From Microbacterium sp. AB (GTDB lineage: Bacteria > Actinomycetota > Actinomycetes > Actinomycetales > Microbacteriaceae), in the NCBI RefSeq assembly GCF_032878875.1, contig NZ_CP118157.1:1488001-1552000 (forward strand): 64,000 nt of DNA. Direction: 5' to 3'. Position 1 is the stretch's first letter, and each line of letters opens with the position of its first letter. Shown here one piece after another: positions 25,324 to 51,162 of the stretch. A model generated the notes under the pieces. That model had not been told where the DNA came from. It was given only the letters and a program-made list of their open reading frames with translations, and made no database searches. The position numbers and the translations under genes were made by a program.

Positions 25324-28202
25324 GCGCGTTCGGACACGGAGCGTATGCCGCGCGCCACATCGGCACGACACCCGACGACCGGGAGCGGATGCTCGCGGCG
25401 ACCGGCCTCGTGCGCGAGGACGACGACGAGCGCGACGCGGCCGGCGTGCTGATGGACGCGGCGGTGCCCGGCGTCATCCGCGGCCGGGGCGACGCCGGAG
25501 CGCGCGTCCCGGAGGACGGCGTCTCGGAGGCCGAGGCGCTCGCCGAGCTGCGCGCGCTCGCGAGCCGGAACCGGGTGCTCTCGCCCATGATCGGTCTCGG
25601 CTACAGCGACACGCTGACCCCGTCGGTCATCCAGCGGAACGTGCTCGAGAACCCTTCCTGGTACACCGCCTACACGCCGTACCAGCCCGAGATCTCCCAG
25701 GGCAGGCTCGAGGCGCTGCTGAACTTCCAGACGATGGTCGCCGATCTCGCCGGGCTCCCCGTCGCGAACGCGTCGATGCTCGACGAGGCGACGGCCGCCG
25801 TCGAGGGGATGCTCGTCGCCCGGCGGGCCGTGCGCGGAGGATCCGACGTGTTCGTCGTCGACGCCGACGCGCTGCCGCAGACGAAGGCCGTGCTGCGCGT
25901 GCGTGCCGAGGCCGTCGGGATCGAGCTCGTGGAGCTCGACCTCGCGGGCGGCGACGCGCTGCCCGAATCGCTGTTCGGGGCGCTCGTCCAGTACCCCGGA
26001 GCGTCCGGCCGCGTGTGGAACCCGCAGGGCGTCATCGACGCCGTGCACGTCGCGGGCGGCCAGGCGGTGGTCGCCGCCGACCTGCTCGCCCTCACGCTCA
26101 TCGCCTCGCCCGGCTCGCTCGGCGCGGACGTCGTCGTCGGCTCGACGCAGCGTTTCGGCGTGCCGCTCGGCTTCGGCGGTCCGCACGCGGGGTACATGGT
26201 CGTGCGCCCGGGCCTCGAACGGCAGCTGCCCGGCCGCCTCGTGGGCGTCTCGAAGGACGCCGACGGGCAGCTCGCCCACCGCCTCGCGCTGCAGACGCGC
26301 GAGCAGCACATCCGCCGGGAGAAGGCGACGAGCAACATCTGCACGGCGCAGGTGCTCCTCGCCGTCATGGCGGCCATGTACGCGGTCTACCACGGGCCCG
26401 ACGGGCTCCGGGCGATCGCGTCGGGCATCGGCCTGCGCACGGCGCTCCTGCGCGACCAGCTCGCGGAGGGCGGTGCCGAGGTGGTGAACGACGCCGTGTT
26501 CGACACGCTGCAGGTGCGCGTGCCGGGGGAGGCCGCGGATGTCGTGGCGCGTGCGCACGGGGGCGGCGTGCTGCTGCGGCTCGTGGACGACGACACGGTG
26601 GGCATCTCCGTCGGCGAGGCCACGACGGGAGACGACCTCGGCATCGTCCGGGCGGCGTTCGGTCTCCCGGACGTGGGCGGGTTCCGCGCCATGAGTCTCG
26701 CGGATCTCCGCCTCCCGCGAGAGCTCGTTCGTCGCGACGACTACCTCACCCATCCGGTCTTCCACGCGCACCGTTCGGAGACGTCGATGATGCGCTACCT
26801 GAAGCGCCTCGCCGACAAGGACTACGCGCTCGACCGCGGCATGATCCCCCTCGGCTCGTGCACGATGAAGCTCAACGCGGCGACCGCGATGGCCGCGATC
26901 AGCTGGCCGGAGTTCGGCCGCATCCATCCCTTCGCCCCCCGGGAGGACGCGGCCGGCTACCTCGCGCTCATCGACCAGCTCGAGACGTGGCTCGCCGACC
27001 TCACGGGCTACGACGCGGTGTCGCTGCAGCCGAACGCGGGGTCGCAGGGAGAGCTGGCGGGCCTCCTCGCCATCCGCGGCTACCACCGCTCGCGCGGCGA
27101 CGCCGGGCGCGACGTGTGCCTCATCCCGTCGTCCGCCCACGGGACGAACGCGGCGTCCGCGGTCCTCGCGGGCCTCCGCGTCGTCGTCGTGGCCTGCGAC
27201 GAACGCGGAAACGTCGACCTCGGCGACCTGCGCGCGAAGATCGCGGCCCATGCGGACGCGCTCGCCGCGCTCATGATCACGTACCCGTCGACGCACGGCG
27301 TGTACGAGCACGACATCCTCGACATCGCCGCCGCCGTGCACGACGCGGGCGGGCAGGTCTACATCGACGGCGCGAACCTCAACGCGCTCGTCGGTCACGC
27401 GCGCTTCGGCGACCTCGGCGGCGACGTGTCGCACCTCAACCTCCACAAGACGTTCGCCATCCCGCACGGCGGCGGCGGTCCGGGCGTCGGACCCGTCGCG
27501 GCCAAGGCGCATCTGGCGCGGTTCCTGCCCTCGCACCCCTTCGCGCAGGACGAGCGAGACGGCATCGGCCCCGTGTCCGCGGCCCCCTACGGGTCGGCTG
27601 GCATCCTGCCGATCTCGTGGGCGTACGTGCGGATGATGGGGCTGGAGGGGCTCACGCAGGCGACCGACGCCGCGGTGGTCGCGGCGAACTATGTCGCGTC
27701 GCGCCTGGAGGAGCACTACCCGGTGCTCTACGCGGGCGAGGGCGGTCGCGTCGCGCACGAGTGCATCCTCGACCTGCGCCCGCTGAAGGCGGAGACCGGG
27801 ATCAGCGTCGACGACGTCGCGAAGCGCCTCATCGACTACGGCTTCCACGCGCCGACGATGTCGTTCCCCGTGGCGGGCACGCTCATGGTCGAGCCCACCG
27901 AGTCGGAGGACCTCGCCGAGCTCGACCGCTTCGTGGACGCCATGATCGCGATCAGGGCGGAGGCGCAGCGGGTGGGCGCGGGGGAGTGGGCGCTCGACGA
28001 CAATCCGCTCGTGAACGCGCCCCACACCGCGGCGTCCGTCGTCGTGGGCGAGTGGAGCCATCCGTACTCGCGCGAGCTCGCCGTCTACCCGGCGGGCGTG
28101 GGGGCGGCGAAGTACTGGCCGCCCGTGCGCCGCGTCGACCAGGCCTACGGAGACCGCAACCTCGTGTGCGCCTGCCCGCCCGTGGACGCCTTCGCGTCGT
28201 GA
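25320..28202 (+). CDS. gcvP: Glycine dehydrogenase (decarboxylating), P protein
   Basis: 960 aa single-chain GcvP, the usual size for the fused alpha-beta type. The N-terminal half holds [14 protein letters not shown] and [48 protein letters not shown] segments (residues ~85-125); the C-terminal half carries [10 protein letters not shown] and the PLP lysine in [18 protein letters not shown] (~residue 711). It decarboxylates glycine and loads the residue on GcvH. GTG start overlaps the gcvH stop. The stop TGA abuts the first unit of an intergenic repeat array. Confidence 0.95.
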
Positions 28203-28284
28203 GAATCCCACGGATCCGCGAGAATCCATCTGCGCCGTGAGAATTCCGCTGCCGCACGCATTCTCGCTGTCGCGCCGGATTGTC
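28201..28284. repeat. 19-nt periodic intergenic repeat, copy 1 (gcvP / Nudix junction)
   Basis: Three GAGAAT-type units start at 28201, 28220 and 28239, exactly 19 nt apart, followed by inverted units ATTCTC at 28260 and ATTGTC at 28279, again 19 nt apart. The centre is GAGAAT-N15-ATTCTC (28239-28265). The first unit overlaps the gcvP stop codon. The array fills the space between convergent genes and may act as a bidirectional terminator or protein-binding array. Confidence 0.75.
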
Positions 28285-28333
28285 GAGAGGACGGCCGTGG
28301 CCGGCGCGACGCGGACGAGCACGGTGCCTCCGC

Positions 28334-28822
28334 TCAGACCTCGAAGCGCGCGCGAGCCTCTCCGGTGACGGCCGTCCGGATCCGCTCGCGCATGTCCGCG
28401 CCGAGGTCGTCCTGCGCGCCGAGCTCGTCGACGCGGCGCCAGAACACCTCGACGTTCTCGCCGTCGGCAGGTCGGGGCTCCCCCGAGACGTAGCGGCACC
28501 GGAACGTCAGATCGAGGTACTGCGCCTGGTCGCCGTTGCCGTAGACCATCGGCGGCAGGGCGTTCACCCACACGAGCGTCTCGGCCTCCGCGACGACGTC
28601 CGCCTCCTCGAGAACCTCGCGGACGGCCGCGACGGCGGGCTGCTCGCCCGGATCCACGATCCCGGTGACCGGTGTGACCTTGGCGTTGTCGGCGCGACGG
28701 CACAGCAGCACCTCCTGCGTCGCGCCCTCGCCCCGGAGGACGACGGCGGTGACGCCCGTGAGCCAGAGAGGATCCGTCCCGATCTTCTCGCGCAGTCGCA
28801 GGATGAAGTCCGGAGTCGCCAT
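28334..28822 (-). CDS. Nudix hydrolase
   Basis: 162 aa. The Nudix box is readable as GIVDPGEQPAVAAVREVLEEADV (residues ~54-76): the metal-binding REVLEE is intact and the usual Gly after it is Ala. N-terminal TGVTAVVLRGEGATQEVLLCRRAD and a C-terminal YLDLTFRCRYVSGEPRPAD fit a (d)NTP or ADP-ribose pyrophosphatase of the actinobacterial MutT-like type; substrate unknown. TAGGAT stands 6 nt before the ATG, suggesting a leaderless mRNA. Convergent with gcvP across repeat copy 1. Confidence 0.85.
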   Translation of the reverse strand: MATPDFILRLREKIGTDPLWLTGVTAVVLRGEGATQEVLLCRRADNAKVTPVTGIVDPGEQPAVAAVREVLEEADVVAEAETLVWVNALPPMVYGNGDQAQYLDLTFRCRYVSGEPRPADGENVEVFWRRVDELGAQDDLGADMRERIRTAVTGEARARFEV

Positions 28823-28879
28823 GGGGCGATCCTAGGCTGTCTCCTCCGGTCGGCCCGGGACGCGGCGCATACGGGCCCC

Positions 28880-28921
28880 GGCATCGACACGACGGCATCG
28901 ACACGACGGCATCGACACGAC
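28880..28921. repeat. Three tandem copies of a 14-bp repeat
   Basis: GGCATCGACACGAC occurs three times in perfect tandem in the space between the divergent Nudix and acetyltransferase genes. The unit is not a multiple of three and lies outside any plausible frame. It is a simple slippage-prone repeat, or possibly a regulatory array. Confidence 0.8.
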
Positions 28922-29040
28922 GCAGGAGCATCCGCGCCGCTCGGCCTGCCGGACCGCGCGAGGTCGCGGGCGTCCGTCGCGGCCGGGGCCGTTCATCCTG
29001 CATCGTGCATCTCCGGACGGGCGGCCGGTAGCGTGGACGC

Positions 29041-29649
29041 GTGGACATGGCCGCGACACCGATCCTGCAGAACGACATCGTCCGGCTCGAGCCGCTGAGC
29101 GCTGCGCATCACGACGACCTCGCCGCCGCCGTCGAGGTCGGCGACCTCTGGCGCACCTGGTACACGCGCATCCCGTCGACCGAGCGCATGGCGGACGAGA
29201 TCGCGCGGCGGCTCTCCGAACAGGCCGGCGGACGGATGGCGCCGTGGGCCGTGATCGACGCGGCGGCGGCGGGGCGTGCGGTCGGCATGACGACGTTCAT
29301 GGCCATCGACGCGCCCAACCGCCGTCTCGAGATCGGGTCGACGTGGATCGGTCGCGGCGCGCAGGGGAGCGGCATCAACCCCGCGGCCAAGCTGCTTCTG
29401 CTCGCGCGCGCCTTCGACGAGCTGGGCTGCATCGCGGTGGAGCTCCGTACGCACTGGCACAACCATCAGTCGCGCGCGGCGATCGAGCGGCTCGGCGCGA
29501 AGCAGGACGGCGTGCTGCGCAGCCACACGATCCTCCCCGACGGGCACGTCCGCGACACGGTGGTGTTCTCGATCGTCGCGCACGAGTGGGAGGCCGTGCG
29601 GCTCGGCCTCGAGGCGCGGCTCGCCCGGCACCGGACGAGCGTGCGCTGA
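29041..29649 (+). CDS. GNAT acetyltransferase, RimJ/RimL type
   Basis: 202 aa. It shows the RimL-like pattern: VRLEPLSAAHHDDL near the start, WYTRIPS, GMTTFMAIDAPNRRLEIGSTWIGRGAQGSGIN (residues ~79-110, with the Q/RGxGxG-like acetyl-CoA loop degenerate as GAQGSGIN), VELRTHWHNHQSRAAIERLGAKQDGVLR. Probable acceptor is a protein N-terminus or small amine; unknown. TAGCGT lies 6 nt before the GTG at 29041, favouring that start over the ATG at 29047. Confidence 0.82.
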   Translation: MDMAATPILQNDIVRLEPLSAAHHDDLAAAVEVGDLWRTWYTRIPSTERMADEIARRLSEQAGGRMAPWAVIDAAAAGRAVGMTTFMAIDAPNRRLEIGSTWIGRGAQGSGINPAAKLLLLARAFDELGCIAVELRTHWHNHQSRAAIERLGAKQDGVLRSHTILPDGHVRDTVVFSIVAHEWEAVRLGLEARLARHRTSVR

Positions 29650-29993
29650 GCCTCTGCTGCGGCTCATCGGGGCGGAGCGTTGTCCTGAGCGCCGACGACG
29701 GCGCATCCGCGTCGATGGGAAAGGGCGCGCCTCGCACGTCGGAGCGGAGGCATCGTCCTGAATCGAGATGACGGCACATCGACACCGACGGAGGTCTGCG
29801 TATTCTGCGGCGCGAGCGCCTGACGGCGGATGAGCCGGGCGGCGGATGGTCGAGGATGACCGCCGACGATGTCGTCGCGGTGGGGGCGTTTCTCCGGCTC
29901 GTCGATCTGACGACGAGCGGACTCGTCGAGCCGTCCGTCCGCCTCTGGCTGCGGCGCGACGGCGACGGTCCGTCCGCTCGATAGCCTGGCGTC
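29650..29993. other. 344-bp gap between two acetyltransferase genes, with a possible ORF remnant
   Basis: No full gene is evident. The frame ending with TAG at 29984 reads, from 29856, MTADDVVAVGAFLRLVDLT and onward to VRLWLRRDGDG, which looks like real protein sequence but has no conventional start or family. It may be the eroded tail of a former gene. The first 130 bases show nothing I can name. Confidence 0.4.
29856..29984 (+). pseudogene. Possible 42-aa ORF or gene remnant
   Basis: ATG at 29856, stop TAG at 29982-29984. The open frame extends upstream to a TGA at 29769, and a strong GGAGGT (29790-29795) sits 6 nt before an ATT at 29802, which would be a very rare start. The composition (GAFLRLVDLTTSGLVEPSVR) is protein-like and unlike random antisense frames. 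The stop codon is part of the TAGCCT hexamer of the next gene. Function unknown. Confidence 0.3.
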
Positions 29994-30413
29994 GTGAGCA
30001 TCGTCATCCGCCCCCTCGCCGACTCCGACGCCGATGCGGTGGTCGCCCTGTGGCGCGACGCCGGGCTCACGCGGCCGTGGAACGATCCGCATGAGGACAT
30101 CCGCCGGGCGCGGGCCGTCTGGCCCGAGCTGCTGCTGGTCGCCGCGGACGGGGACGAGGTCGTCGGCTCCGTCATGGCGGGGTACGACGGGCACCGCGGA
30201 TGGCTGTACTACCTCGCGTCCTCGCGATCCGGCGAGGGGATCGGCCGGTCGCTCGTCGCGGAGGCCGAGGCGAGGCTCGTCGCGCTCGGATGCCCGAAGG
30301 CGATGCTCATGGTGCGCCCCGACAACGCCGCGGTGCTCGGCTACTACGACGCCATCGGCTATGTGCGTGAAGGCACGGCCGTGACGGGCAAGCGCCTCAT
30401 CCCGGACGGGTGA
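29994..30413 (+). CDS. GNAT acetyltransferase, YpeA-like
   Basis: 139 aa. Strongly resembles the YpeA/RimI-like group: IRPLADSDADAVVALWRDAGLTRPWNDPHEDIRRA at the N-terminus (residues ~5-40), GSVMAGYDGHRGWLYYLAS (~60-78), the acetyl-CoA loop RSGEGIGRSLVAEAE, and MVRPDNAAVLGYYDAIGY (~105-122). The acceptor substrate is unknown. GTG start with TAGCCT 6 nt upstream (29982-29987), so probably leaderless. Convergent with the CPBP gene across repeat copy 2. Confidence 0.87.
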   Translation: MSIVIRPLADSDADAVVALWRDAGLTRPWNDPHEDIRRARAVWPELLLVAADGDEVVGSVMAGYDGHRGWLYYLASSRSGEGIGRSLVAEAEARLVALGCPKAMLMVRPDNAAVLGYYDAIGYVREGTAVTGKRLIPDG

Positions 30414-30445
30414 GGCGGCCTCCCGCGAGGAGGTGGGCGACGGCT

Positions 30446-30493
30446 GGATTCTCGCGGCAGACATGGATCGTCGCCGCGGAGCTGGATCCTCGC
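30446..30493. repeat. 19-nt periodic intergenic repeat, copy 2 (half array)
   Basis: Three units in one orientation, GGATTCTCGC (30446), GGATCGTCGC (30465) and GGATCCTCGC (30484), exactly 19 nt apart. No inverted partner units are visible, so this copy is half of the structure seen at 28201, 46194 and 51098. It ends next to the stop codon of the convergent membrane protease gene. Confidence 0.7.
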
Positions 30494-30494
30494 G

Positions 30495-31259
30495 CTACGG
30501 CAGGTACGGCGCCGCGAGCGGGTAGCCGACGAAGGCGATGACGTCGATGAAGGCGTGCGCGAGCACGAGAGGCATGACGCGTCCCCACCGGCGGTAGCAC
30601 CATCCGAAGACGATGCCCATGGCGAAGTTGCCGATGAGGGGCCCGAAGCCCTGATACGCGTGATAGGTCGCACGGAGCGCCGCCGTCGAGAGGATGATCG
30701 CCCACGCGCCCCACCCGGCGCGCGCGAGCCGGTCGAAGAGGTAGCCGTTGAGGATGACCTCCTCCAGCAGCCCCGCGCGGATGGCCGACAGCACGAGGAG
30801 CGGGACGGTCCACCACGCGGCGTCGAGGGAGGACGCCTCGACCTCGACCGTGACGCCGAGCAGGCGCCCGGCGGCATAGAGCGCGAGCCCGGGGACGCCG
30901 ATGACGACGAGGAGGAGGCCGGCGCCTCCGAGGTCGCGCGGAAGGCGCCGGAAGTCCAGGCCGATGCGCCGGAGCGCGTTGCGTCCCGGCTCCCACAGCA
31001 GATACACGACGAGGGCGACGAGACAGAGGTCGAAGAAGACGTCGAGCACGCGGTAGACGGCATCCCACACGGCCTCCTCGGCCTGTGCGGGGTTGAGCGC
31101 CGTGGACTGGTCCGACAACGCCTCGGTGCGCAGGAGGGCCCGCAGGAGGGAGAGAACCGAGTAGAGCGCCGACTGCCCGAGCGAGAGCGCCAGGACGATG
31201 CCGATCTCCCACCACAGCCGGCGGCGGTCGACGGTGGCGGATGCGGTCGCAGAGGTCAC
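30495..31259 (-). CDS. CPBP-family intramembrane metalloprotease (CAAX-like)
   Basis: 254 aa with 7-8 hydrophobic segments. The CPBP motifs are visible: GLLEEVILNGYLFDRL (~residue 170; motif 1 EExxxR has Asn in place of Arg), then FGPLIGNFAMGIVFGWCY and LVLAHAFIDVIAF, with the expected His and Asp. Such proteins process prenylated or small secreted peptides or act as bacteriocin-immunity proteins; the role here is unknown. I start at the GTG at 31259, giving a normal cytoplasmic head; upstream codons in frame are arginine-rich and unlikely. Confidence 0.8.
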   Translation of the reverse strand: MTSATASATVDRRRLWWEIGIVLALSLGQSALYSVLSLLRALLRTEALSDQSTALNPAQAEEAVWDAVYRVLDVFFDLCLVALVVYLLWEPGRNALRRIGLDFRRLPRDLGGAGLLLVVIGVPGLALYAAGRLLGVTVEVEASSLDAAWWTVPLLVLSAIRAGLLEEVILNGYLFDRLARAGWGAWAIILSTAALRATYHAYQGFGPLIGNFAMGIVFGWCYRRWGRVMPLVLAHAFIDVIAFVGYPLAAPYLP

Positions 31260-31387
31260 GGGACGAGCGTGCCACAAGCTGCGGGCGACCATGCGGGAAC
31301 GGCCCGTCGAGGCGCCGCGGGCGGCCGTGCAGATTGCCACACGGGGACGTCGCGTCGTAAAGGGTCTGTAACGGTTGCGCGGAAGAT

Positions 31388-31416
31388 TTGTCACAGTCCG
31401 CCGAGGAGCTTAGATT
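31388..31416 (+). promoter_or_regulatory. Promoter of the oligopeptide ABC operon
   Basis: TTGTCA (31388-31393) and TAGATT (31411-31416) separated by exactly 17 nt form one of the best sigma-70-type promoters in the window, 73 nt before the binding-protein start. The leader is otherwise featureless apart from GGAGG at 31477. Confidence 0.6.
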
Positions 31417-31489
31417 TCAGCTATCGCTTTCAGGAGACTCTGAGCCTCCTGCGAGCACCCCCATCACCTTCCATCGGAGGAACACCACA

Positions 31490-33280
31490 GTGAAGCGCAA
31501 CAGGATCGCCCTCTCGGGCCTCGCGCTGCTCGGCGTCGGAGGGCTCGCGCTCTCCGGCTGCACGACGGCCGCTGAAGAAGAGACAGACGGCGACACGACC
31601 AGCGACGGTGGCACGATCACGATCGCCACGACCAACGCCCTCACCTCGTTCAACGGCGACACGCCGCAGTCGAACCTCGACACGAACGGCATGATCGGCT
31701 ACCTCACGGGCGTGAGCGGCGGCCTGGGGCTCGGTGGTTTCCTCTACCTCGACAACGAGTTCAACATCGTCCACGACGAGAGCCTGGGCACGTACGAGGC
31801 GGTCAGCGAGGACCCGCTGACGGTCAAGTACACGCTCAACGAGGGTGTCACCTGGTCGGACGGGACCGAGATCACCACCGATGACCTCCTGACGACGTGG
31901 GCGATCAACTCCGGGTACTACGACGACGCGAGCTACGACGAGGCGACCGGTGAGGTCACCTCCGGAACGCAGTACTTCCAGCTCGCCGGCAGCACCGCGG
32001 GCCTCGACACGACGGCGTTCCCGGAGATCGACGAGGACGAGCGGAGCCTCACGATCACCTATGAGACGCCCTTCGTGGACTGGGAGCTCGTGAACCTGCT
32101 CGGCAAGCCCGCGCACGTGCTCGCCGACAAGGCGGGCGTGACCGTCGACGAGCTCGTCAGCACCCTCGAGGAGCTGCCCGAGGGCGACCCCGCCAGCCCG
32201 GCGGAGCCGAACGAGACGCTGCAGGCGGTGGCCGACTTCTGGAACACCGGCTACGACGTCACGGAGTTCCCGAGCGACGAGTCGCTGCTCGTGTCGAGCG
32301 GGCCCTTCATCGTCACCGACTTCGTCCCGGACTCCTCGGTCACCCTCGAGAAGAACCCGGAGTACGCGGGCGAGAACGAGCCGGCCTACGACCAGCTCAT
32401 CATCCGCTTCATCGGCGACGCGAACGCTCAGGTCACCGCGCTCCAGAACGGCGAGGTCAACGCGATCTACCCGCAGGCGTCCGCCGACACGCTGACGGCT
32501 CTGGAGTCGGCCAACGCGAACATCCACGAGGGCGACCAAGTGTCGTACGACCACCTCGACCTGAACTTCGGCTCCGAGGTCTTCAGCGACCCCGACGTGC
32601 GCGAGGCCTTCCTCAAGACGATCCCGCGTCAGCAGATCCTCGAGTCGATCATCACGCCCGTGAACCCCTCGGCCGAGGTGCTGAACTCGCAGATCTATGT
32701 CGGCAGCCAGGCCGAGTACGCGGATGCGATCGCGGAGAACGGGTACGACGAGTTCGCCGAGCCCGACATCGAGGGAGCCCAGCAGCTCCTGAACGGCCAG
32801 ACGCCGACCGTGGGCATCCTCTACAACACCGACAACCCGAACCGCGTCGACGCCTTCGCCCTCGTGAAGGAGTACGCCGAGCAGGCGGGCTTCATCATCG
32901 AGGACCTCGGCTCGCCCGACTGGTCGTCGCTTCTCGCCGGCGGCGAGTACGACGCCTCGATCTTCGGATGGATCTCTCCCGGTGCGGGCAACGCGGCGCT
33001 CCCGCAGATCTTCGCGACCGGCGGCGGTGGCAACTACAACGGCTACAGCAACGCCGAGGTCGACGAGCTTGTGGCGGAGTCGCAGGTCACCCTCGACGCC
33101 GACGCGCTCGAAGACATCAAGATCCAGATCGACGCCAAGACCGCCGAGGACCGCTACGGGCTGCCGCTGTTCCAGCTGCCCGGGCTGTTCGCCGACAACG
33201 GCACGGTGACGGGGATCGAGCACTTCGGCGGCCAGACGGGTATCGTCTGGAACGCCCAAGACTGGACCCTCGCCGACTGA
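31490..33280 (+). CDS. Oligopeptide ABC transporter substrate-binding lipoprotein
   Basis: 596 aa. The signal MKRNRIALSGLALLGVGGLALSGC ends in the lipobox LSGC, so the protein is anchored at the outer membrane face by Cys24. The rest is a family 5 solute-binding protein (DppA/OppA type): NEGVTWSDGTEITTDDLLTTW (~residues 119-139) and FSDPDVREAFLKTIPRQQILESI (~residues 365-387) are hallmark regions. Strongly acidic (Asp/Glu/Thr-rich). GTG start with GGAGG 8 nt upstream. First gene of the operon; a strong hairpin separates it from the permease genes. Confidence 0.92.
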   Translation: MKRNRIALSGLALLGVGGLALSGCTTAAEEETDGDTTSDGGTITIATTNALTSFNGDTPQSNLDTNGMIGYLTGVSGGLGLGGFLYLDNEFNIVHDESLGTYEAVSEDPLTVKYTLNEGVTWSDGTEITTDDLLTTWAINSGYYDDASYDEATGEVTSGTQYFQLAGSTAGLDTTAFPEIDEDERSLTITYETPFVDWELVNLLGKPAHVLADKAGVTVDELVSTLEELPEGDPASPAEPNETLQAVADFWNTGYDVTEFPSDESLLVSSGPFIVTDFVPDSSVTLEKNPEYAGENEPAYDQLIIRFIGDANAQVTALQNGEVNAIYPQASADTLTALESANANIHEGDQVSYDHLDLNFGSEVFSDPDVREAFLKTIPRQQILESIITPVNPSAEVLNSQIYVGSQAEYADAIAENGYDEFAEPDIEGAQQLLNGQTPTVGILYNTDNPNRVDAFALVKEYAEQAGFIIEDLGSPDWSSLLAGGEYDASIFGWISPGAGNAALPQIFATGGGGNYNGYSNAEVDELVAESQVTLDADALEDIKIQIDAKTAEDRYGLPLFQLPGLFADNGTVTGIEHFGGQTGIVWNAQDWTLAD

Positions 33281-33344
33281 CGCGGAGTCCGCGGACATCC
33301 TCGGCGCACATCGGATCCCCCGGAGGAGAGAACCTCTGAGGGAC

Positions 33345-33383
33345 GTGCAGGGCACCGGAGCACATCGCTCCGGTGCCCTGCAC
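33345..33383 (+). terminator. Perfect 17-bp hairpin after the binding-protein gene
   Basis: Arms 33345-33361 and 33367-33383 are exact reverse complements (GTGCAGGGCACCGGAGC) with a 5-nt loop ACATC. No T-run follows. Placed between the binding protein and its permease genes, it likely protects or attenuates the transcript so that the binding protein is made in excess, as in other binding-protein operons. Confidence 0.75.
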
Positions 33384-33467
33384 CGTGCGACGGCTCCGGC
33401 CGCCGGGACCGCGGACGTGTCGCGAACCAGCGTGCTCCACGACAACTCGATCAGTTAGGGGACCCAG

Positions 33468-41584: not shown

Positions 41585-41606
41585 GTGTTCAGTATGGCAA
41601 ACGACT

Positions 41607-41670: not shown

Positions 41671-41703
41671 GTGCGATGTCGGCGAATCCACGGGGACGCC
41701 CGG

Positions 41704-42740: not shown

Positions 42741-42780
42741 CGCCGCGTGCGCTCCCAGCCGACGGCGATAGCCTGCGGGG

Positions 42781-43203: not shown

Positions 43204-43251
43204 GGCTCGCCTTCGGGGCGCGGGCGGTTCAGCCCACGTAGGATTGCGGAT

Positions 43252-43572
43252 GTGACTTATGTGATCGCCCTTCCCTGCGTGGACGTCAAGGACCGCGCGT
43301 GCATCGATGAGTGTCCTGTCGACTGCATCTACGAGGGCGAGCGCAGCCTGTACATCCACCCGGACGAGTGCGTGGACTGCGGGGCGTGCGAGCCGGTGTG
43401 CCCGGTCGAGGCGATCTACTACGAGGACGACCTGCCCGAGGAGTGGGCGGACTACTACAAGGCCAACGTGGAGTTCTTCGACGACATCGGCTCCCCGGGG
43501 GGAGCCTCCAAGACCGGCGTCATCCCCAAGGACCACCCCCTCATCACCGCCCTCCCACCCCAGGGCGAGTAG
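43252..43572 (+). CDS. fdxA: 7Fe ferredoxin
   Basis: 106 aa, the FdxA/FdxC type. The [3Fe-4S] site uses [21 protein letters not shown] with the Cys spacing of 7Fe ferredoxins; the [4Fe-4S] site is the ordered [13 protein letters not shown] soluble acidic tail follows. It serves as a low-potential electron carrier. The GTG at 43252 has TAGGAT 7 nt upstream (43239-43244), suggesting a leaderless mRNA. It sits directly before dapC, as in mycobacteria. Confidence 0.93.
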
Positions 43573-43575
43573 GCG

Positions 43576-44688: not shown

Positions 44689-44733
44689 GTTTCCTCCACG
44701 ACTCCTCCCGGCCTTTGGGAGTTTTCACAGGTA

Positions 44734-44762
44734 GGCGACACGACCGTTAGGCTGTAGAGGCA
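44734..44762 (+). promoter_or_regulatory. Possible gltA promoter
   Basis: TTCACA followed about 18 nt later by TAGGCT gives a plausible weak -35/-10 pair about 100 nt before the gltA start; other hexamers (TAGAGG) lie close. The 44689-44865 gap holds no gene and no clear terminator. Confidence 0.4.
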
Positions 44763-44865
44763 CAGCGTTCGCATACTCATCCGATCGTGTGCCGGGCCGC
44801 CGATCGGCGGCCACAAGAGTTCCATGCGACCAAGACGTCGCGAAGACGATCCTCCAGGAGGCGCT

Positions 44866-46161
44866 GTGAGCGACGCGGGAAACCCGGCCGACAAGGCCAC
44901 CCTCACGATCGGTGACAAGACGGCGGAGTTCCCCGTTCTGCAGAGCAGCAGCGGCGTCCCGAGCATCGACATCTCGACGCTCATGCGCGAGACGGGGCAC
45001 ACCACCCTCGACTACGGCTTCGTGAACACGGCGTCGACGACGTCGGCGATCACCTACATCGACGGCGACCAGGGGATCCTGCGCTACCGCGGCTACCCGA
45101 TCGAGCAGCTCGCGAAGAACTCGAGCTTCCTCGAGACGGCGTGGCTGCTCATCTACGGGGAGCTGCCGACGGCGGACGAGCTCGCCGGGTTCGACGACCG
45201 CATCCGCCGTCACACGCTCCTGCACGAGGACCTCAAGCAGTTCTTCACGGCCCTTCCCGACGGCGCCCATCCGATGGCCGTGCTCTCGTCGGCCGTCTCG
45301 GCGCTGTCGACGTACTACGAGCACCAGTCCGACCCGGCGAACCCCGAGCACGTCGAGCTCAACATCATCCGGCTCCTCGCGAAGCTGCCCGTCATCGCGG
45401 CGTACGCCCACAAGAAGTCGATCGGCCAGGCGTTCCTCTACCCCGACAACTCCCTGAGCTTCGTCGACAACTTCCTGCGCCTGAACTTCGGCGTGATGAG
45501 CGAGCCGTACGACGTCGACCCGGTCATGTCGCGCGCCCTCGAGCGCCTCCTCATCCTGCACGAGGACCACGAGCAGAATGCGTCGACCTCCACGGTGCGC
45601 CTGGTCGGCTCGACGGGAGCCGACCAGTTCGCCTCGGTCTCCGCCGGCATCCACGCCCTCTCGGGCCCGCTGCACGGCGGCGCGAACGAGGCCGTCCTCA
45701 AGATGCTCGCCCAGATCCGCGACTCCGGCCAGAGCGTGCAGCGCTTCGTCGAGCGGGTGAAGAACAAGGAGGAGGGCGTGAAGCTCATGGGCTTCGGGCA
45801 CCGGGTGTACAAGAACTACGATCCGCGTGCCAAGCTCGTCAAGGAGTCGGCCGACGAGGTGCTCCGCGAGCTCGGCGTCACCGATCCGCTCCTCGACCTC
45901 GCCAAGGAGCTCGAGGAGATCGCCCTGAGCGACGACTACTTCAAGGAACGTCGTCTCTATCCGAACGTCGACTTCTACACCGGCGTCATCTACAAGGCGA
46001 TGGGCTTCCCGTCGCGGATGTTCACGGTGCTCTTCGCGATCGGGCGCCTGCCCGGATGGCTGGCGCACTGGCGCGAGCTCAACCTCGATCCCCAGACCAA
46101 GATCGGGCGTCCGCAGCAGCTCTTCACCGGCTCGCCGGAGCGGGAGTACCCGACGGCCTGA
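44866..46161 (+). CDS. gltA: Citrate synthase
   Basis: 431 aa, the hexameric bacterial type. It condenses acetyl-CoA and oxaloacetate. Visible catalytic regions: HEDHEQNASTSTVRLVGSTGADQFASVSAGIHALSGPLHGGANE (residues ~235-280; catalytic His in LHGGANE), LMGFGHRVYKNYDPRAK (~306-322) and NVDFYTGVIYKAMGFP (His/Asp/Arg catalytic set conserved). The GTG at 44866 has an AGGAGG 6 nt before it; the longer ATG at 44824 lacks one. Entry enzyme of the TCA cycle; ends before repeat copy 3. Confidence 0.94.
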   Translation: MSDAGNPADKATLTIGDKTAEFPVLQSSSGVPSIDISTLMRETGHTTLDYGFVNTASTTSAITYIDGDQGILRYRGYPIEQLAKNSSFLETAWLLIYGELPTADELAGFDDRIRRHTLLHEDLKQFFTALPDGAHPMAVLSSAVSALSTYYEHQSDPANPEHVELNIIRLLAKLPVIAAYAHKKSIGQAFLYPDNSLSFVDNFLRLNFGVMSEPYDVDPVMSRALERLLILHEDHEQNASTSTVRLVGSTGADQFASVSAGIHALSGPLHGGANEAVLKMLAQIRDSGQSVQRFVERVKNKEEGVKLMGFGHRVYKNYDPRAKLVKESADEVLRELGVTDPLLDLAKELEEIALSDDYFKERRLYPNVDFYTGVIYKAMGFPSRMFTVLFAIGRLPGWLAHWRELNLDPQTKIGRPQQLFTGSPEREYPTA

Positions 46162-46193
46162 GTCGCCTCGCGCCCGCCGCCCGCGCAATCGGC

Positions 46194-46261
46194 GAGGATC
46201 CATCCGGCCGGCGAGAATCCATCCGCCACGCGCATTGTCGCGGTGCGGATGGATTCTCGCC
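46194..46261. repeat. 19-nt periodic intergenic repeat, copy 3 (gltA / dapD junction)
   Basis: Forward units GAGGATCC (46194) and GAGAATCC (46213) and inverted units ATTGTC (46234) and ATTCTC (46253), each pair 19 nt apart with a 21-nt step at the centre. The arms 46210-46226 and 46245-46261 are perfect 17-bp complements (GGCGAGAATCCATCCGC). It lies between convergent genes, so RNA from either side could fold into a stable hairpin. Confidence 0.85.
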
Positions 46262-46283
46262 GCATCGATCGACGAGGCGCGGC

Positions 46284-47231
46284 TCAGGCGTGGAGCGCAG
46301 CGTTGAGCGTCACGCCGACGCCCCTGCGGCGCCGGGCCTGGATGGCGCCCGTCACGGAGTTGCGGATGAACAGCAGACCGCTCGCGCCGTGGAGCGACGC
46401 GGCCTTCACGATCTGCGGCGTTCCGTCCGCCGTCGGGGGCTCGTCGGGGAGGACGACCTTCGTGCCGGCGGTGATGTAGAGACCGGCCTCCACGACGCAG
46501 TCGTCGCCGAGGGAGATCCCGATGCCGGCGTTGGCGCCGAGCAGCGTCCTCTCGCCGATCGACACCCGGTGGGTGCCGCCTCCGGAGAGCGTCCCCATGA
46601 TCGACGCGCCGCCGCCGATGTCGCTGCCGTCTCCGACGACGACGCCCTGCGAGACGCGGCCTTCGACCATCGACGCGCCGAGCGTGCCCGCGTTGAAGTT
46701 GACGAAGCCCTCGTGCATGACGGTCGTCCCGGGGGACAGGTACGCGCCCAGCCGCACGCGCGACGCGTCGGCGACGCGCACGCCGGGGGGGAGGACGTAG
46801 TCCGTGAGGCGCGGGAACTTGTCGAGGGACTGCACCTGGATCCCGGCACGCTGGAGCACGGGGCGCAGCCGGGTGAGGTCGTCCGGATGGACCGGCCCCG
46901 CGTTCGTCCAGGCGACGTTGGGCAGATGGGCGAAGACGCCGTCGAGGTTGAGGTCGTTGGGCTTCACGAGGCGGTGCGAGAGCGCGTGCAGACGCAGATA
47001 GGCGTCCGAGGTCGACGCGGGCGCCGCATCGAGGTCGATCTCGACCTGCACGGCCTCGACCGTGACGTTGCGGCGCTCGTCCGGGCCCGCGGCGCGCTCG
47101 AGCTCCGCCGCCGATGCCTCCGCAACGGCGGGCGAGCCCGTGCCGAGCCTTCCGTACCAGGTGTCCAGTACCGTGCCGTCGCCGGCGATCGTCGCGAGGC
47201 CGACGCCCCAGACCGTTCGTTCATCGCTCAT
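46284..47231 (-). CDS. dapD: Tetrahydrodipicolinate N-succinyltransferase
   Basis: 315 aa, the actinobacterial DapD with an alpha/beta N-terminal domain and a C-terminal left-handed beta-helix of hexapeptide repeats ([47 protein letters not shown], residues ~165-250). It succinylates tetrahydrodipicolinate in lysine and DAP synthesis. It is divergent from dapE. TACCCT (47239-47244) lies 7 nt before the ATG; a GGGAGG also falls inside that spacer. It converges with gltA over repeat copy 3. Confidence 0.93.
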
Positions 47232-47290
47232 GCCTCCCAGGGTATCCGGGAGCGCGGGGCGTCTCCTCCGCGCTCGATAGACTCGAGGCC

Positions 47291-48367
47291 ATGCCGACGC
47301 TCGACCTCACCCTGTCCGCCGCCGATCTGACCCGGGCGATCTGCGACATCCCGAGCGTCTCCGACGACGAGCGCGTCCTCGCGGACGCGATCGACGAGGC
47401 CGTCCGCGCGCTCGCGCACCTCGAGGTGCATCGCGACGGCGACACGATCGTCGCGCGCACGCAGCTCGGGCGTGCGCAGCGGGTCGTCATCGCCGGTCAC
47501 ATCGACACGGTGCCCGTCAACGGCAACGTGCCGACCCGCGACGTCGAGATCGACGGCGAGCCCTTCATCTGGGGGCGCGGCACCGTCGACATGAAGGGCG
47601 GCACGGCCGTGCAGCTCCGGCTCGCGGCCGAGCTCGCCGACCCCGTCGTCGACATCACGTGGATCTGGTACGACCACGAGGAGGTCGAGGCCTCGAAGAG
47701 CGGCCTCACGAGGCTCGCCGCGACGCGTCCCGATCTGTTCGCCGGCGATCTCGCCATCCTGGGAGAGCCCTCGAACGGAGAGGTCGAGGGCGGCTGCAAC
47801 GGCACGCTCCGCGTCGTGGCACGCACCCGGGGCCGTCGGTCCCACTCGGCACGGGCGTGGATGGGCGAGAACGCGATCCACGCCGCGGCGCCGATCCTCG
47901 CGCGGCTCGCCGCGTACGAGCCGCGGGAGATCGTCGTCGACGGTCTCGCCTACCGCGAAGGGCTGAACGCCGTGAGGATCTCGGGCGGCGTCGCGGGGAA
48001 CGTCATCCCCGACCTGTGCGAGGTCGAGGTGAACTTCCGCTTCGCGCCCAGCAGGTCGGGGGAGCAGGCGGTCGCGCACGTCCGCGAGGTGCTCGAGGGC
48101 TTCGACGTCGAGGTGACCGACCTCGCCGAGGGCGCCCGGCCCGGGCTCGATGCGCCGATCGCGCAGGACTTCGTCCGCGCGGTGGGCGCGACGCCCCGGC
48201 CGAAGTACGGGTGGACGGACGTCGCGCGCTTCTCGGCGCTCGGCGTGCCGGCCGTGAACTACGGCCCCGGCGATCCGAGCCTCGCGCACCACGACGAGGA
48301 GCGCGTGTCCGTCGCGCAGATCGAGGACGTCGAGCGGGGTCTGCGGGCATGGCTGACGGCCGGCTGA
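47291..48367 (+). CDS. dapE: Succinyl-diaminopimelate desuccinylase
   Basis: 358 aa M20 metallopeptidase of the actinobacterial DapE type. [14 protein letters not shown] (~residue 75) and [13 protein letters not shown] (~96) supply zinc ligands, WYDHEEVEA (~residue 125) the catalytic Glu, [18 protein letters not shown], and a late [15 protein letters not shown] the last His. It makes LL-DAP from its succinyl form. TAGACT stands 7 nt before the ATG (47278-47283), so the gene is likely leaderless. Its end overlaps the next gene by 19 nt. Confidence 0.93.
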
Positions 48368-49590
48368 CGGCTTCGTCCGCGACGACGGGCTGGCGCGCCC
48401 GGTGGGATGCGCTCCCCCCTGTCGTCCGCATCACGTCGATCTACGTCGCCGCGCGCCTCGTGACGACGGCGCTCATGCTGCTGAGCGCCCAGCTGTCGCC
48501 GGCGTCGTCCCGGTTCGGGCCGGATCCCGGCCTCGTCGACTACATCCTCGGATGGGACGCCCAGTGGTACTGGACGGTCGCCGTCGACGGCTATCCGGCC
48601 GACCTGCCGCTGTCGGAGGGCGGCGACGTCGAGCAGAACGCCTGGGCATTCATGCCGGTGTACGCATACCTCTCGCAGCTCGTCGGAAACGTGCTCGGCG
48701 CGGGGACGTGGTGGATCGGCGCTCTCCTCGTCTCGCTGGTCGCCGGCTGGGCCGCGTGCGTCGTCCTGCACCGCCTGCTGCGCGAGCGCCTCGACGAGGA
48801 CCGGGCGCAGTGGGGCGTCGTGATCTTCGCGAGCGGGCCCCTCGCCGCGCTGTTCCAGGTGGGGTACGCGGAGTCGCTGTTCCTCCTCTTCCTCCTCACG
48901 GCGCTGCTGTGCGTCATGCGCAGACGGTGGCGCGCCCTGTACCTGCTCGTGCCGCTCATGGGCTTCACCCGGCCCGGAGTGCTCGCCTTCGCGCTCTTCC
49001 TCGGCCTCTACGGGATCTGGCGCCTGACGCGGCGGCGGACCGTTCCGCTTCCGCGCATCGAGATCGTGCACATCGTGGCCGTCGCCGCCCTCGCCACGGC
49101 CGTGGGCTTCGCGTGGCAGGCGATCACGGGCGCGGTGACGGGGGATCCCGAGGCGTACCTCGAGACGGAGCTCGCCTGGCGCCGCTCGTGGACGGGCGAC
49201 GGCGGCGGCTTCGTCCCCTTCGAGGGATGGATCCAGGCAGCGGGGGTGTGGGCCGGCGTGTGGGGGATCCCGGCCTGGCTCTGCTACGCCCTTCTGGGCG
49301 TGGGGGTGGCCGGCACGTTCGCGGCGCTCCTCTTCGCCTCCTCCGTGAGACGACTGGGCGGAGAGGTCCGGCTCTGGTCGGCGAGCTACCTCGTCTACCT
49401 GCTGGCGGTGTTCTTCCCGCAGTCGAGCACCTTCCGCCTCCTCGTTCCGCTCGCCCCGCTCGCGGGAGCACTGGCGGTGACGCGCCGGCCCGGTTACCGC
49501 GCCTGCGTCCTCCTGGCCTGCCTCGTCGCGCAGTGGGCGTGGATCTTCGGCATGTACGGGCACGGGAACACGTTCTGGCTCATCCCCTGA
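48349..49590 (+). CDS. PIG-V-like GT-C family integral membrane protein (putative mannosyltransferase)
   Basis: 413 aa with about 9-10 helices. GWDAQWYWTVAVDGYP (~residue 65-80, first-loop acidic motif), QNAWAFMPVYAYL, VGYAESLFLLFLLTALL, GFTRPGVLAFALFLGLYG and FPQSSTFRLLVPLAPLAGAL are typical of PIG-V-like glycosyltransferases that use polyprenyl-linked sugars in the membrane. The acceptor is unknown; lipoglycan mannosylation is plausible in actinobacteria. The ATG at 48349 overlaps dapE by 19 nt, so they are probably cotranscribed. Confidence 0.75.
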   Translation: MADGRLTASSATTGWRARWDALPPVVRITSIYVAARLVTTALMLLSAQLSPASSRFGPDPGLVDYILGWDAQWYWTVAVDGYPADLPLSEGGDVEQNAWAFMPVYAYLSQLVGNVLGAGTWWIGALLVSLVAGWAACVVLHRLLRERLDEDRAQWGVVIFASGPLAALFQVGYAESLFLLFLLTALLCVMRRRWRALYLLVPLMGFTRPGVLAFALFLGLYGIWRLTRRRTVPLPRIEIVHIVAVAALATAVGFAWQAITGAVTGDPEAYLETELAWRRSWTGDGGGFVPFEGWIQAAGVWAGVWGIPAWLCYALLGVGVAGTFAALLFASSVRRLGGEVRLWSASYLVYLLAVFFPQSSTFRLLVPLAPLAGALAVTRRPGYRACVLLACLVAQWAWIFGMYGHGNTFWLIP

Positions 49591-49687
49591 ATCCGGTCAC
49601 GAGGGGAAATCTGACACGCCCGTGCAACAGCGGATGACAACGCGACCGATAAACTAGAGCTCTGACCGCAACGGAAAGGATGCCGCG

Positions 49688-49861
49688 ATGGCAGCGATGA
49701 AGCCGAGAACCGGAGACGGACCTATGGAGGCCGTGAAGGAGGGGCGCCTCATCATCGTGCGCGTCCCGCTCGAAGGTGGCGGGCGACTCGTCGTATCCGT
49801 CAATGACGAAGAGGCCCGGGAGCTGCACGGCGTGCTGGGCAACGTCGTGAGCGCCGCGTAG
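49688..49861 (+). CDS. DUF3117-family small protein
   Basis: 57 aa. MAAMKPRTGDGPMEAVKEGR and the following LIIVRVPLEGGGRLVVSVND match the strongly conserved actinobacterial DUF3117 family, whose function is unknown. GAAAGGA is the ribosome binding site; TAAACT at 49650-49655 is a likely -10. A strong terminator follows at 49881. Very short but certain from conservation of sequence I recognise. Confidence 0.88.
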   Translation: MAAMKPRTGDGPMEAVKEGRLIIVRVPLEGGGRLVVSVNDEEARELHGVLGNVVSAA

Positions 49862-49880
49862 CATTCGCGTTCGTCTCGTG

Positions 49881-49918
49881 GCGGATGGCCGGACCCTCGG
49901 GATCCGGCCATCCGCTTT
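49881..49918. terminator. Strong terminator after the DUF3117 gene
   Basis: GCGGATGGCCGGA (49881-49893) and TCCGGCCATCCGC (49903-49915) form a perfect 13-bp stem with a 9-nt loop, followed by TTTCT. It separates two convergent genes and is the clearest intrinsic terminator in the window. Confidence 0.85.
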
Positions 49919-49919
49919 C

Positions 49920-50555
49920 TCATGCCGTGGGGACGACCGTCAGCTGGAGGAGACCCTCGTTCACCGTCGACAGCGCGGCGATGACGGCGGCGGAGGCCTG
50001 CGTCTCCTGCAAAAGCGTGCGGTAGTTGCGGGTCGTCGCGTCGCGCTGCACCGGGTCGGCGACGCGTCCGCCGTGCAGCACGCGCGGCACGAGGACCGTG
50101 CCGCCGGGGCGCGCCAGACGCAGCCCGTGCTCGACGTAGTCGATGACGTTCGCGGCATCCGCATCGATGAGCACGATGTCGTATGCGCCCTCGTTCATGC
50201 GCGGGAGGACCTCGGCCGCGCGGCCCGTGATGTAGCGGGCGCGCGCAAGGGGGACCCCCGCCGCCTGGAACGCCGAGCGGGCCGCCGAGAGATGCTCCGG
50301 CTCGCTGTCGATCGTCGTGAGCACCGCCTGAGGCGCGCCGTGCAGGAGCCAGAGCCCCGAGACGCCGGCGCCGGTGCCGATCTCGATGATCGTGCGCGCC
50401 GCCGTGGCCGCCGTCACGACGGCGCACTGCGCGCCGATCCCGGGGCTGATCGGCGCGGCGCCGAGCTCGAGCGCGTTCTGACGGGCGCGAGCGATGTGGT
50501 CGGGCTCGACGACCGTCTCGCGGGCGAAGCGGGCGACCGCATCCAGTTCGCTCAT
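49920..50555 (-). CDS. SAM-dependent O-methyltransferase, family 3
   Basis: 211 aa Rossmann methyltransferase of the catechol O-methyltransferase-like group. IIEIGTGAGVSGLWLL (~residues 56-71) is motif I, AYDIVLIDADAANVIDYVEHGLRLARPGGTVLVPRVL (~residues 124-160) motifs II-III. The acceptor is unknown. It corresponds in position to the mycobacterial Rv1220c-like gene (recalled). AGGAGG lies 8 nt before the ATG. It faces away from tatB across an 82-bp region. Confidence 0.85.
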   Translation of the reverse strand: MSELDAVARFARETVVEPDHIARARQNALELGAAPISPGIGAQCAVVTAATAARTIIEIGTGAGVSGLWLLHGAPQAVLTTIDSEPEHLSAARSAFQAAGVPLARARYITGRAAEVLPRMNEGAYDIVLIDADAANVIDYVEHGLRLARPGGTVLVPRVLHGGRVADPVQRDATTRNYRTLLQETQASAAVIAALSTVNEGLLQLTVVPTA

Positions 50556-50637
50556 AGGGCAATCCTCCTGACGATCTCCTCAGCCTACGGTGCCGTCGGC
50601 GCCCTGACCGGGCGGCGCGGCCCGGTACCCTGAGATC

Positions 50638-51018
50638 ATGTTCTCCGGGCTGACGATCGAGAAGATTGCGCTGATCGGCTTCATCGCAGCCCTCATCGTC
50701 GGCCCCGAGCGGCTCCCGCGGTATGCGGAGAACCTCGCCGTGCTCATCCGCCGGGCGCGGGACTGGCTGCAGGGGGCGCGCACGCGCGTCAAGGACGAGA
50801 TGGGCGAGGACTTCGACGACGTCGACTGGCAGAAGCTCGATCCGCGTCAGTACGATCCTCGACGCATCATCCGCGAGGCGCTCCTGGACGACGCGCCGGC
50901 CGCCGCCGCCGCGGGAAGCGCGCCGAAGGCGGCGGTGCGCCAGCCGCGGACGACCCCGCTCACGCGAGAGACCTTCACCGCCGAGGCGCCGCCGCCGTTC
51001 GACTCCGAGGCGACCTGA
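50638..51018 (+). CDS. tatB: Twin-arginine translocase subunit TatB
   Basis: 126 aa. Residues ~8-22 form the single N-terminal membrane helix; VGPERLPRYAENLAVLIRRARDWLQGARTRVKDEMGEDF (residues ~22-60) is the amphipathic helix of TatB and the rest is a disordered Ala/Pro tail. It forms the receptor complex with TatC for folded exports. TACCCT (50626-50631) 6 nt before the ATG suggests a leaderless mRNA. tatA and tatC are not in this window. Confidence 0.87.
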   Translation: MFSGLTIEKIALIGFIAALIVGPERLPRYAENLAVLIRRARDWLQGARTRVKDEMGEDFDDVDWQKLDPRQYDPRRIIREALLDDAPAAAAAGSAPKAAVRQPRTTPLTRETFTAEAPPPFDSEAT

Positions 51019-51097
51019 CCCCGCTGTGCTCCTGCGGCCGACCGCTCGGTGCGCCCTGCGGCCCGGGCGCGGCGTTCGACGCGGTGCTCGTCTCGCC

Positions 51098-51162
51098 GAG
51101 AGTCCACATGGGCCGCGAGAATCCGGGCGCCGGCCGCATTCTCGCGGCGCGGATCGATTCTC
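51098..51162. repeat. 19-nt periodic intergenic repeat, copy 4 (tatB / mrp junction)
   Basis: Forward units GAGAGTCC (51098) and GAGAATCC (51117), inverted units ATTCTC (51138 and 51157): the same 19-21-19 nt layout as copies 1 and 3. The centre GCCGCGAGAAT/ATTCTCGCGGC (51112-51122 and 51138-51148) is an 11-bp stem. It lies between the convergent tatB and mrp genes. Confidence 0.8.

Follow-up and report, generated by a model that had tools for sequence, protein, structure and literature searches.

Short intergenic repeats of bacteria are commonly attributed to a known transposase or to RNA hairpins. MITEs and ERIC-type elements are small, palindromic and non-autonomous repeats of intergenic regions, and bidirectional intrinsic terminators consist of a GC hairpin whose arms pair, in some cases flanked by A/T tracts on the correct sides. 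Two reports (PMC3116915, PMC3733652) describe REPs and REPINs as short palindromic extragenic repeats with many copies and lineage-specific letters; REPINs have conserved ends and a drifting spacer of fixed length, and lie mostly between convergent or unidirectional genes. The stoperators of cluster A mycobacteriophages, as presented in PMC9283540 and PMC6550527, are numerous asymmetric sites of ~13 bp in short intergenic gaps, oriented with transcription and carried on phage genomes having their own repressor; the motif drifts between relatives, and bound sites are proposed to stop elongation.

The window analyzed here, the whole stretch of 64,000 nucleotides from Microbacterium sp. AB, contains four arrays of short units (Table 1). 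The arrays resemble REPINs in inverted conserved ends, fixed-length spacer, placement and lineage-specific letters, but consist of four units at 19/21/19 bp in place of two REPs, in a genus that nearly lacks the RAYT family. Like stoperators, they are short asymmetric sites present in large number within intergenic gaps; unlike them, they form inverted arrays of fixed layout at the ends of chromosomal genes, and the exact generic array pattern had no match in viral_contigs. Array polarity is inverted-symmetric; in tandem arrays of genome G188 the polarity of the center was 12 to 6 (18 scoreable of 22), which is not significant. With MITEs they share small size, palindromy, intergenic position and, in G188, near-identical copies whose flanks are unrelated, but lack target duplications and, in three genomes, a long parent, and their units are conserved in place of uniform ends. 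They occupy the same junctions as bidirectional intrinsic terminators, but have no U-tract after the stem in the G188 flanks. Here the expected transposase is lacking and the two genomes tested do not preserve hairpin pairing, while the spacing rule is held genus-wide as the letters change.

Geometry, copy number and spread

The units of the four arrays lie where an earlier note on this DNA had placed them, and its 21-nt step between forward and inverted halves (GAGAAT-N15-ATTCTC) is right for the three complete copies. Array 2, for which one arm only had been claimed, has three inverted units, but GAGGAG at 30427, a weak forward unit 21 nt ahead of the ATTCTC at 30448, is possibly its other arm in eroded form. 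All ten exact GAGAAT hexamers of the window (both strands) fall inside the four arrays. Gene contexts throughout are those of a purpose-made automatic gene caller, which may miss small genes. Pfam backed the flanking gene pairs previously named (gcvP/NUDIX, GNAT/CPBP, gltA/dapD and Mrp), except that the protein called TatB had no Pfam match at 1e-5.

Table 1. Arrays and flanking genes in the 64-kb window
Feature	Position	Strand	Remarks
Array 1	28201..28284	.	Five units: forward 28201, 28220, 28239; inverted 28260, 28279; overlaps the TGA stop of gcvP, on the downstream side of the NUDIX gene
Array 2	30446..30491	.	Inverted units 30446, 30465, 30484; between GNAT and CPBP genes
Array 3	46194..46258	.	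Forward 46194, 46213; inverted 46234, 46253; between citrate synthase and dapD-like genes
Array 4	51098..51162	.	Forward 51098, 51117; inverted 51138, 51157; between 126-aa ORF and mrp
Glycine dehydrogenase (gcvP)	25320..28202	+	Pfam; stop towards array 1
NUDIX protein	28334..28822	-	Pfam; stop towards array 1
GNAT acetyltransferase	29994..30413	+	Pfam; stop towards array 2
CPBP/Rce1-like protease	30495..31259	-	Pfam; stop towards array 2
Citrate synthase	44866..46161	+	Pfam; stop towards array 3
Tetrahydrodipicolinate succinyltransferase (dapD-like)	46284..47231	-	Pfam; stop towards array 3
126-aa protein (TatB of the earlier note)	50638..51018	+	Stop towards array 4
Mrp/NUBPL-type P-loop NTPase	51191..52330	-	Pfam; stop towards array 4

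The AB genome (3.64 Mb, one contig) contains 32 array sites, the four of the window included, and 21 of them are full four-unit arrays in register (forward, forward, inverted, inverted; 19/21/19 nt). Genome-wide, GAGAATCC-N11-GAGAAT was found 17 times exactly (reversed control, 0) and 75 times at up to 3 mismatches (reversed control, 1). Exact GAGAAT pairs with gaps of 0-30 nt had the 13-nt gap, equal to the 19-nt pitch, in 18 of 19 cases. Extra units keep this pitch in three five-unit arrays of the AB genome and in the array of genome G013, which has five forward units (the first shortened) and two inverted ones. A total of 34 array rows of the AB genome were all kept in one arm-covariation test; ten mis-registered or incomplete rows were excluded from the target-duplication, distance, copying and second covariation tests. 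Locus L197 (781066) was judged no array and was excluded.

The same geometry with other core letters was found in 192 of 295 Microbacterium genomes, with up to 79 copies per genome, while the reversed control of the generic pattern gave 2 matches; the generic pattern found no array in the other 103. Chance origin is ruled out by the reversed controls in the AB genome and the genus together with the 18 of 19 pairs at the 19-nt pitch. Core letters are species-specific across the genus. Per-base agreement between outer left and right triplets was 0.88 within an array and 0.38 between arrays (32 arrays from 31 genomes, one array of G011 being counted twice, as L220 and L246). The suggestion that spacing is what matters is thus borne out, since the 19-nt pitch holds genome- and genus-wide while core letters and spacers change. 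None of 15 genomes from other genera of the order matched an AB-genome-like pattern, used there in place of the generic one, and one 116-bp query matched nothing among plasmids and phages.

Core/spacer contrast, arm pairing and hairpins

The statistics for G188 cover 50 of its 62 arrays. Core positions outside the search pattern, and likewise flank positions -1 to -3, were 94-100% one base, while the bases at the center of the spacer vary almost freely. In 49 unit pairs of the AB genome cores are likewise kept and spacers drift, partly by construction, as the pairs were picked by their core.

Nested bidirectional terminators, proposed in the earlier note, if of the intrinsic (RNA hairpin) kind, or 3'-end stabilizing hairpins would suit the position of arrays after stop codons. 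However, arm covariation was absent from the AB genome, both in the 34 rows and in 24 cleaned rows (spacers 0.523 versus 0.552 permuted), and from G188 (0.596 versus 0.607 permuted, p=0.73), which argues against a terminator of the RNA-hairpin type. Array 3 has strong hairpin potential (z -3.8 and -5.0 for its two strands) and the center of the G013 array is a strong hairpin in itself, whereas arrays 1 and 2 fold no better than shuffled sequence, unit numbers can be odd, and in G188 a T-rich patch stands before the arms, not after them. Across 30 genomes, with one array each, 0.652 of spacer pairs were palindromic (0.400 permuted), and the mid-spacer was palindromic as well (0.594 versus 0.377 permuted); this consensus-level palindromy speaks for hairpins. 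On balance an RNA hairpin terminator is improbable. The six arrays of genome G206 showed a slight pairing excess (0.879 versus 0.833, p=0.05), and together with the palindromic arms across families this suggests a possible role for a single-strand hairpin, at the least during the origin of families.

A scan of array-facing 3' ends for a hairpin with U-tract was positive for 1 of 37 ends in the AB genome and 10 of 70 in G188, where 5 of 24 convergent arrays also lie beside a separate strong hairpin; arrays are therefore not the sole stop signal in G188. No known RNA family was found at the arrays in the window scan, or in 8 loci. A barrier made by protein at the arrays is possible.

Copying and mobility

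The best interpretation of the arrays is a new family of miniature mobile repeats. In G188, 28 identical 8-nt spacer pairs were found against 5.8 expected, and the best array pairs were 97% alike over 31 variable positions, while the flanks of similar-spacer pairs were at background identity. Near-identical arrays in unrelated flanks indicate that the element was copied, and the mobile palindromic element among the earlier suggestions is supported in this genome; conversion between existing arrays could also produce such copies.

Three sets of arrays (24, 15 and 31; 5 of 36 loci excluded) showed target-site duplications of lengths 2-10 no more often within than between arrays. An autonomous parent was sought in three genomes and a long parent element was not found: in the AB genome 48 of 49 half-arrays (at most 2 mismatches) lie inside arrays, and halves of one core family were paired at 43 nt in 42 of 42 cases in G102 and 26 of 29 in G163.

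Selfish repeats of the REPIN type, mobilized by a RAYT-like single-strand transposase, would account for the size of the arrays, their conserved inverted ends, spacers that vary in sequence but not in length, convergent or tandem placement and copying. However, the RAYT domain Y1_Tnp (PF01797) is present in just 1 of 295 genus genomes, G041, in which the generic pattern finds no array; it is absent from the AB genome, and the E. coli control was positive. Compensatory hairpin changes, in excess (slightly) only in the six G206 arrays among the three genomes, are missing from the AB genome and G188, and base counts in both genomes revealed neither a GTAG nor a CGTC tag at the consensus ends. A RAYT mobilizer is thus ruled out by its distribution and the REPIN-type explanation is very unlikely; a mobilizer other than RAYT is possible.

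Placement at gene ends and the proposed binder

Arrays prefer gene 3' ends and seldom lie between divergent genes. All four window sites are at convergent junctions, as first described, but the AB genome has 14 convergent, 13 tandem and 5 divergent sites, so convergent placement is a bias, not a rule. The 50 G188 arrays comprise 24 convergent, 22 tandem and 4 divergent ones; the comparison set, intergenic gaps of at least 65 bp in 64 kb of the AB genome, has 5, 11 and 10, respectively. The median distance to the facing stop is 30 nt in G188 and 40 nt in the AB genome, and to the facing start 95 and 88 nt. An ortholog ending at an array elsewhere was found for 7 of 36 array-bearing stop ends and 2 of 50 array-free ends (p=0.03), and the gcvP orthologs of G188 and G163 likewise end at an array. 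Among AB-genome genes whose start faces an array, 8 of 23 have an array-adjacent ortholog; recurrence at orthologs is not peculiar to stops.

Sites of a nucleoid or chromosome-organizing protein, at gene ends merely because they are tolerated there, would agree with dozens of copies round the chromosome and with some clustering in G188 (10 gaps below 4 kb among 50 arrays, 2.9 expected). The closeness of stops relative to starts and the 103 genomes without a detected array make this highly improbable.

Host-owned protein-dependent bidirectional terminators ('chromosomal stoperators'), sharing letters via conversion and not transposition, are possible, if rather unlikely. They would explain 3'-end placement, short distances to stops and the presence of arrays at the same gene ends in species whose cores differ. 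Of 18 array-free genomes, 13 have a strong hairpin at the gltA/dapD junction; of the 6 genomes with an array or array-like units there (AB, G013, G191, G050, G248 and G164), just 1 has one outside the array; in convergent gaps of 50-300 bp of the AB genome the corresponding counts are 0 of 10 with an array and 3 of 11 without. These differences depend on few junctions, however, and the double signals of G188, the array-free genomes of the genus and whole arrays near-identical in unrelated flanks speak against such terminators. At array-free junctions of the AB genome U-tract terminators were too rare for comparison, with 3 at 28 convergent 3' ends and 2 at 40 tandem ones.

With slightly less than even confidence, we favor arrays as copies of a ~67-80 bp miniature mobile repeat nearly restricted to Microbacterium, its sites bound by protein and forming a bidirectional barrier. 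A full copy would present four near-identical sites of ~10-13 bp, two forward and two inverted, at 19/21/19-bp spacing, to a sequence-specific protein that would read them as double-stranded DNA. This protein may be the mobilizer of the element or a domesticated DNA-binding protein, with protomers 19 bp apart that would meet across the 21-bp center; its specificity would shift between lineages, and all four sites would follow. The multi-protein binding array proposed earlier fits best, but its placement on a single face of the DNA does not, as 19 bp make about 1.8 turns of B-DNA. The array probably acts as a two-way transcription barrier. Once bound, commonly 15-60 nt past the stop codon, it might halt RNA polymerase from both sides and so work as a bidirectional terminator or insulator; such a block would explain why several species carry arrays at the ends of the same genes. 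That a chromosomal, sequence-specific and protein-dependent bidirectional terminator is served by a binder family rapidly re-specifying itself on 19-bp-spaced sites at gene ends, with binder and sites spreading together as a mobile domesticated insulator, is doubtful.

A common neighbor gene as source of the binder is ruled out as far as the Pfam scan of flanking proteins from other genomes reached (123 of 196): no family recurs more than five times, MarR_2 being found five times. In the AB genome, ten proteins of the 64 flanking genes were scanned. Since the spacing rule is constant while the letters change, the putative binder should be within reach of a pull-down using a single 80-bp fragment; it would reveal either a new route by which repeats spread in bacteria or a protein-based ending of transcripts. 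A tRNA scan of 9 loci with divergent arrays revealed no adjoining tRNA; tRNAs are located near the arrays of loci L244 and L306.

Arrays in the window and across the genome

An array is here a four-unit repeat, two forward and two inverted units stepped by 19, 21 and 19 nt, with the core GAGAAT in Microbacterium sp. AB. An earlier note had located four sites of this kind in the window, one of them with a single arm, and had placed each between convergent genes. Their coordinates (Table) were confirmed by site reading and a window scan, and convergent genes were found at every one with our own gene caller; the gene names given to the flanks are backed by Pfam, except TatB, which had no Pfam match at 1e-5. 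All 10 exact GAGAAT hexamers of the window, on both strands, lie inside the four arrays. Within the window, arrays occupy 4 of the 5 convergent gaps of at least 65 bp and none of the 21 tandem or divergent gaps.

Table. Positions of arrays and other sequences discussed.
Feature	Position	Context
Array 1	window 28201..28284	gcvP/NUDIX
Array 2	window 30446..30491	GNAT/CPBP
Array 3	window 46194..46258	gltA/dapD
Array 4	window 51098..51162	tatB/mrp
Tandem glycine riboswitch aptamers (RF00504)	window 22138-22318	upstream of glycine cleavage genes
Array L196	genome 754394	glyA/folD
27-mer GAGAATCCGAACCGGCGGTGACAGTCC (L197), not an array	G000:C1:781066-781092	tandem intergenic gap
L253, not an array	G209:C1:1335968	

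In the whole genome, GAGAATCC-N11-GAGAAT gave 17 exact matches against 0 for a reversed control, and a longer form of the pattern gave 75 against 1 with up to 3 mismatches. The fixed spacing described earlier is kept genome-wide, with 18 of 19 GAGAAT pairs (free gap 0-30) at the 19-nt pitch. The units were assembled into 32 sites: 21 have four units in register (+0, +19, -40, -59), and in three of these a fifth unit is added; 7 reach the scan threshold at three of their four units; and 4 deviate (one one-sided, one composite, two whose second half is displaced by 1-2 nt). The unit motif, derived from pairs picked by their core, approximates CnGCGAGAATCCA, the remaining 11 nt being mostly under weak constraint. 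The 27-mer at 781066, identical in G059 and G060 and matched by a near-identical 25-mer in G008, was excluded from the array set and is some other conserved element.

Spread and variation of the unit

A generalised pattern of the same geometry, CGAGANNNC, was matched with up to 3 mismatches in 192 of 295 Microbacterium genomes at 1-79 copies each, of which the low per-genome counts may be background; the control gave 2 matches over all 295. Locus L253, a 19-nt tandem repeat lacking the inverted half, was rejected as a false positive of this pattern. At family level 17 of 299 genomes had matches, copy numbers of 10 or above being confined to three genomes of Microbacterium and two of a single other genus; related arrays also occur in Cryobacterium and one MAG. 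The central join varies more than the pitch, measuring 21 nt in our genome and most loci compared, 20 nt in M. paludicola, 22 nt in Cryobacterium and as little as 15 nt in one family of M. luticocti. In M. luticocti G059 (contigs C4, C8 and C15), GAGAGTGCTTCTGACGGACGAGGATGC stands in four exact copies, again at 19-nt pitch.

The letters 3' of GAGA vary by genome, and sometimes by family inside one genome. In 32 arrays drawn from 31 genomes, the two outer units of one array agree with each other at 0.88 per base, against 0.38 for arrays of different genomes; outer and inner pairs, agreeing at 0.68, can differ. In the array-rich comparison genome G188 (50 of 62 arrays), core positions beyond the search pattern hold one base at 94-100% and the central spacer bases are nearly unconstrained. 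If the arms paired as RNA, the spacers should covary within an array. Spacer covariation was absent in G188 (0.596 against 0.607 permuted, p=0.73) and in our genome (0.523 against 0.552 permuted in 24 cleaned arrays, and likewise with all 34 rows), and flank-patch covariation was absent in G188. On the side of pairing, within-array palindromy across genomes reaches mid-spacer (0.594 against 0.377; 30 genomes, each represented by a single array), and the arms are mostly paired in G163 and G206 (spacer pairs 0.83 and 0.88), slightly above permuted arms in G206 (6 arrays, p=0.05). We read the families as starting as palindromes, of which later selection would keep the cores alone; a single-strand hairpin may have had a role at family birth. 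The cores stay constant, the spacers are free in sequence at a fixed length, additional units keep to the pitch, and specificity changes symmetrically; together these traits point to a putative protein that reads the arrays as double-stranded DNA.

Position relative to genes and recurrence at junctions

Arrays lie in 14 convergent, 13 tandem and 5 divergent gaps in our genome (n=32) and in 24, 22 and 4 in G188 (n=50); the window's own gaps number 5, 11 and 10. The median distance from array to facing stop is 40 nt in our genome (30 sides) and 30 nt in G188 (70 sides), and to facing start 88 nt (18 sides) and 95 nt (30 sides), respectively. The G188 arrays are bordered on the outside by CCCG, followed on both strands by a patch rich in T and C, with facing stop or start alike. 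On contig C1 of G188, arrays cluster in adjacent intergenic gaps (10 gaps below 4 kb against 2.9 expected, n=50).

The flanking genes were compared with the array flanks of 33 other genomes (50 arrays in G188, 7 in G163, 6 in G206, mostly one each elsewhere). In gaps of at least 65 bp, 7 of 36 array-bearing stop ends have an ortholog that likewise ends at an array, whereas 2 of 50 array-free ends do (p=0.03); against all 136 non-adjacent genes, a less fair control, the figures are 7 of 39 and 0. Genes with an array-facing start recur in 8 of 23 cases against 3 of 136, which fits a recurrence of whole junctions. The glyA/folD junction bears arrays here and in G018 (L229) and G036 (L262), and gcvP adjoins arrays here and in G188 and G163, in both cases with core letters unlike ours; these one-carbon and glycine genes are repeated array neighbours in several species. 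That arrays lie close to stops and return at shared junctions suggests that they are tolerated, or of use, where transcripts end.

Among 24 genomes with gltA and dapD at most 350 nt apart, a strong hairpin is present in 13 of the 18 without an array; of the six that have an array, or units resembling one, G191 alone has a strong hairpin outside it, and the strong hairpin of G013 is the centre of the array itself. In our genome, 0 of 10 array-bearing and 3 of 11 array-free convergent gaps of 50-300 bp have a strong hairpin, counted outside the array where there is one; in G188, 5 of 24 array-bearing convergent gaps also have one. These counts suggest that an array may take the place of a terminator.

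Copying and known elements

In G188 there are 28 pairs of identical 8-nt spacers against 5.8 expected (maximum 14 in 300 simulations). The two most alike pairs of arrays agree at 97% over 31 variable positions, and their flanks are unrelated from the array edge outwards. Such copying points to the arrays being a putative mobile element. Target duplication was sought at the arrays and none was seen. Half-arrays lie within arrays in 48 of 49 cases in our genome (up to 2 mismatches) and, for the one core family searched, within full arrays in 42 of 42 cases in G102 and 26 of 29 in G163, so that no long parent element is seen in these three genomes.

Among the papers listed on Microbacterium palindromic repeats, REP/MITE and bidirectional, roadblock or actinobacterial U-tract-less terminators, in a collection with few of the subscription journals, such arrays are described in no title or abstract opening. 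In function, the arrays come closest to the stoperators of cluster A mycobacteriophages (PMC9283540, PMC6550527); the closest element type is the REPIN (PMC3116915, PMC3733652), from which the arrays differ in lacking a transposase, a tag and, in our genome and G188, compensatory change. The REPIN mobiliser Y1_Tnp occurs in 1 of 295 genus genomes (L354 of G041), itself devoid of arrays by the generic pattern.
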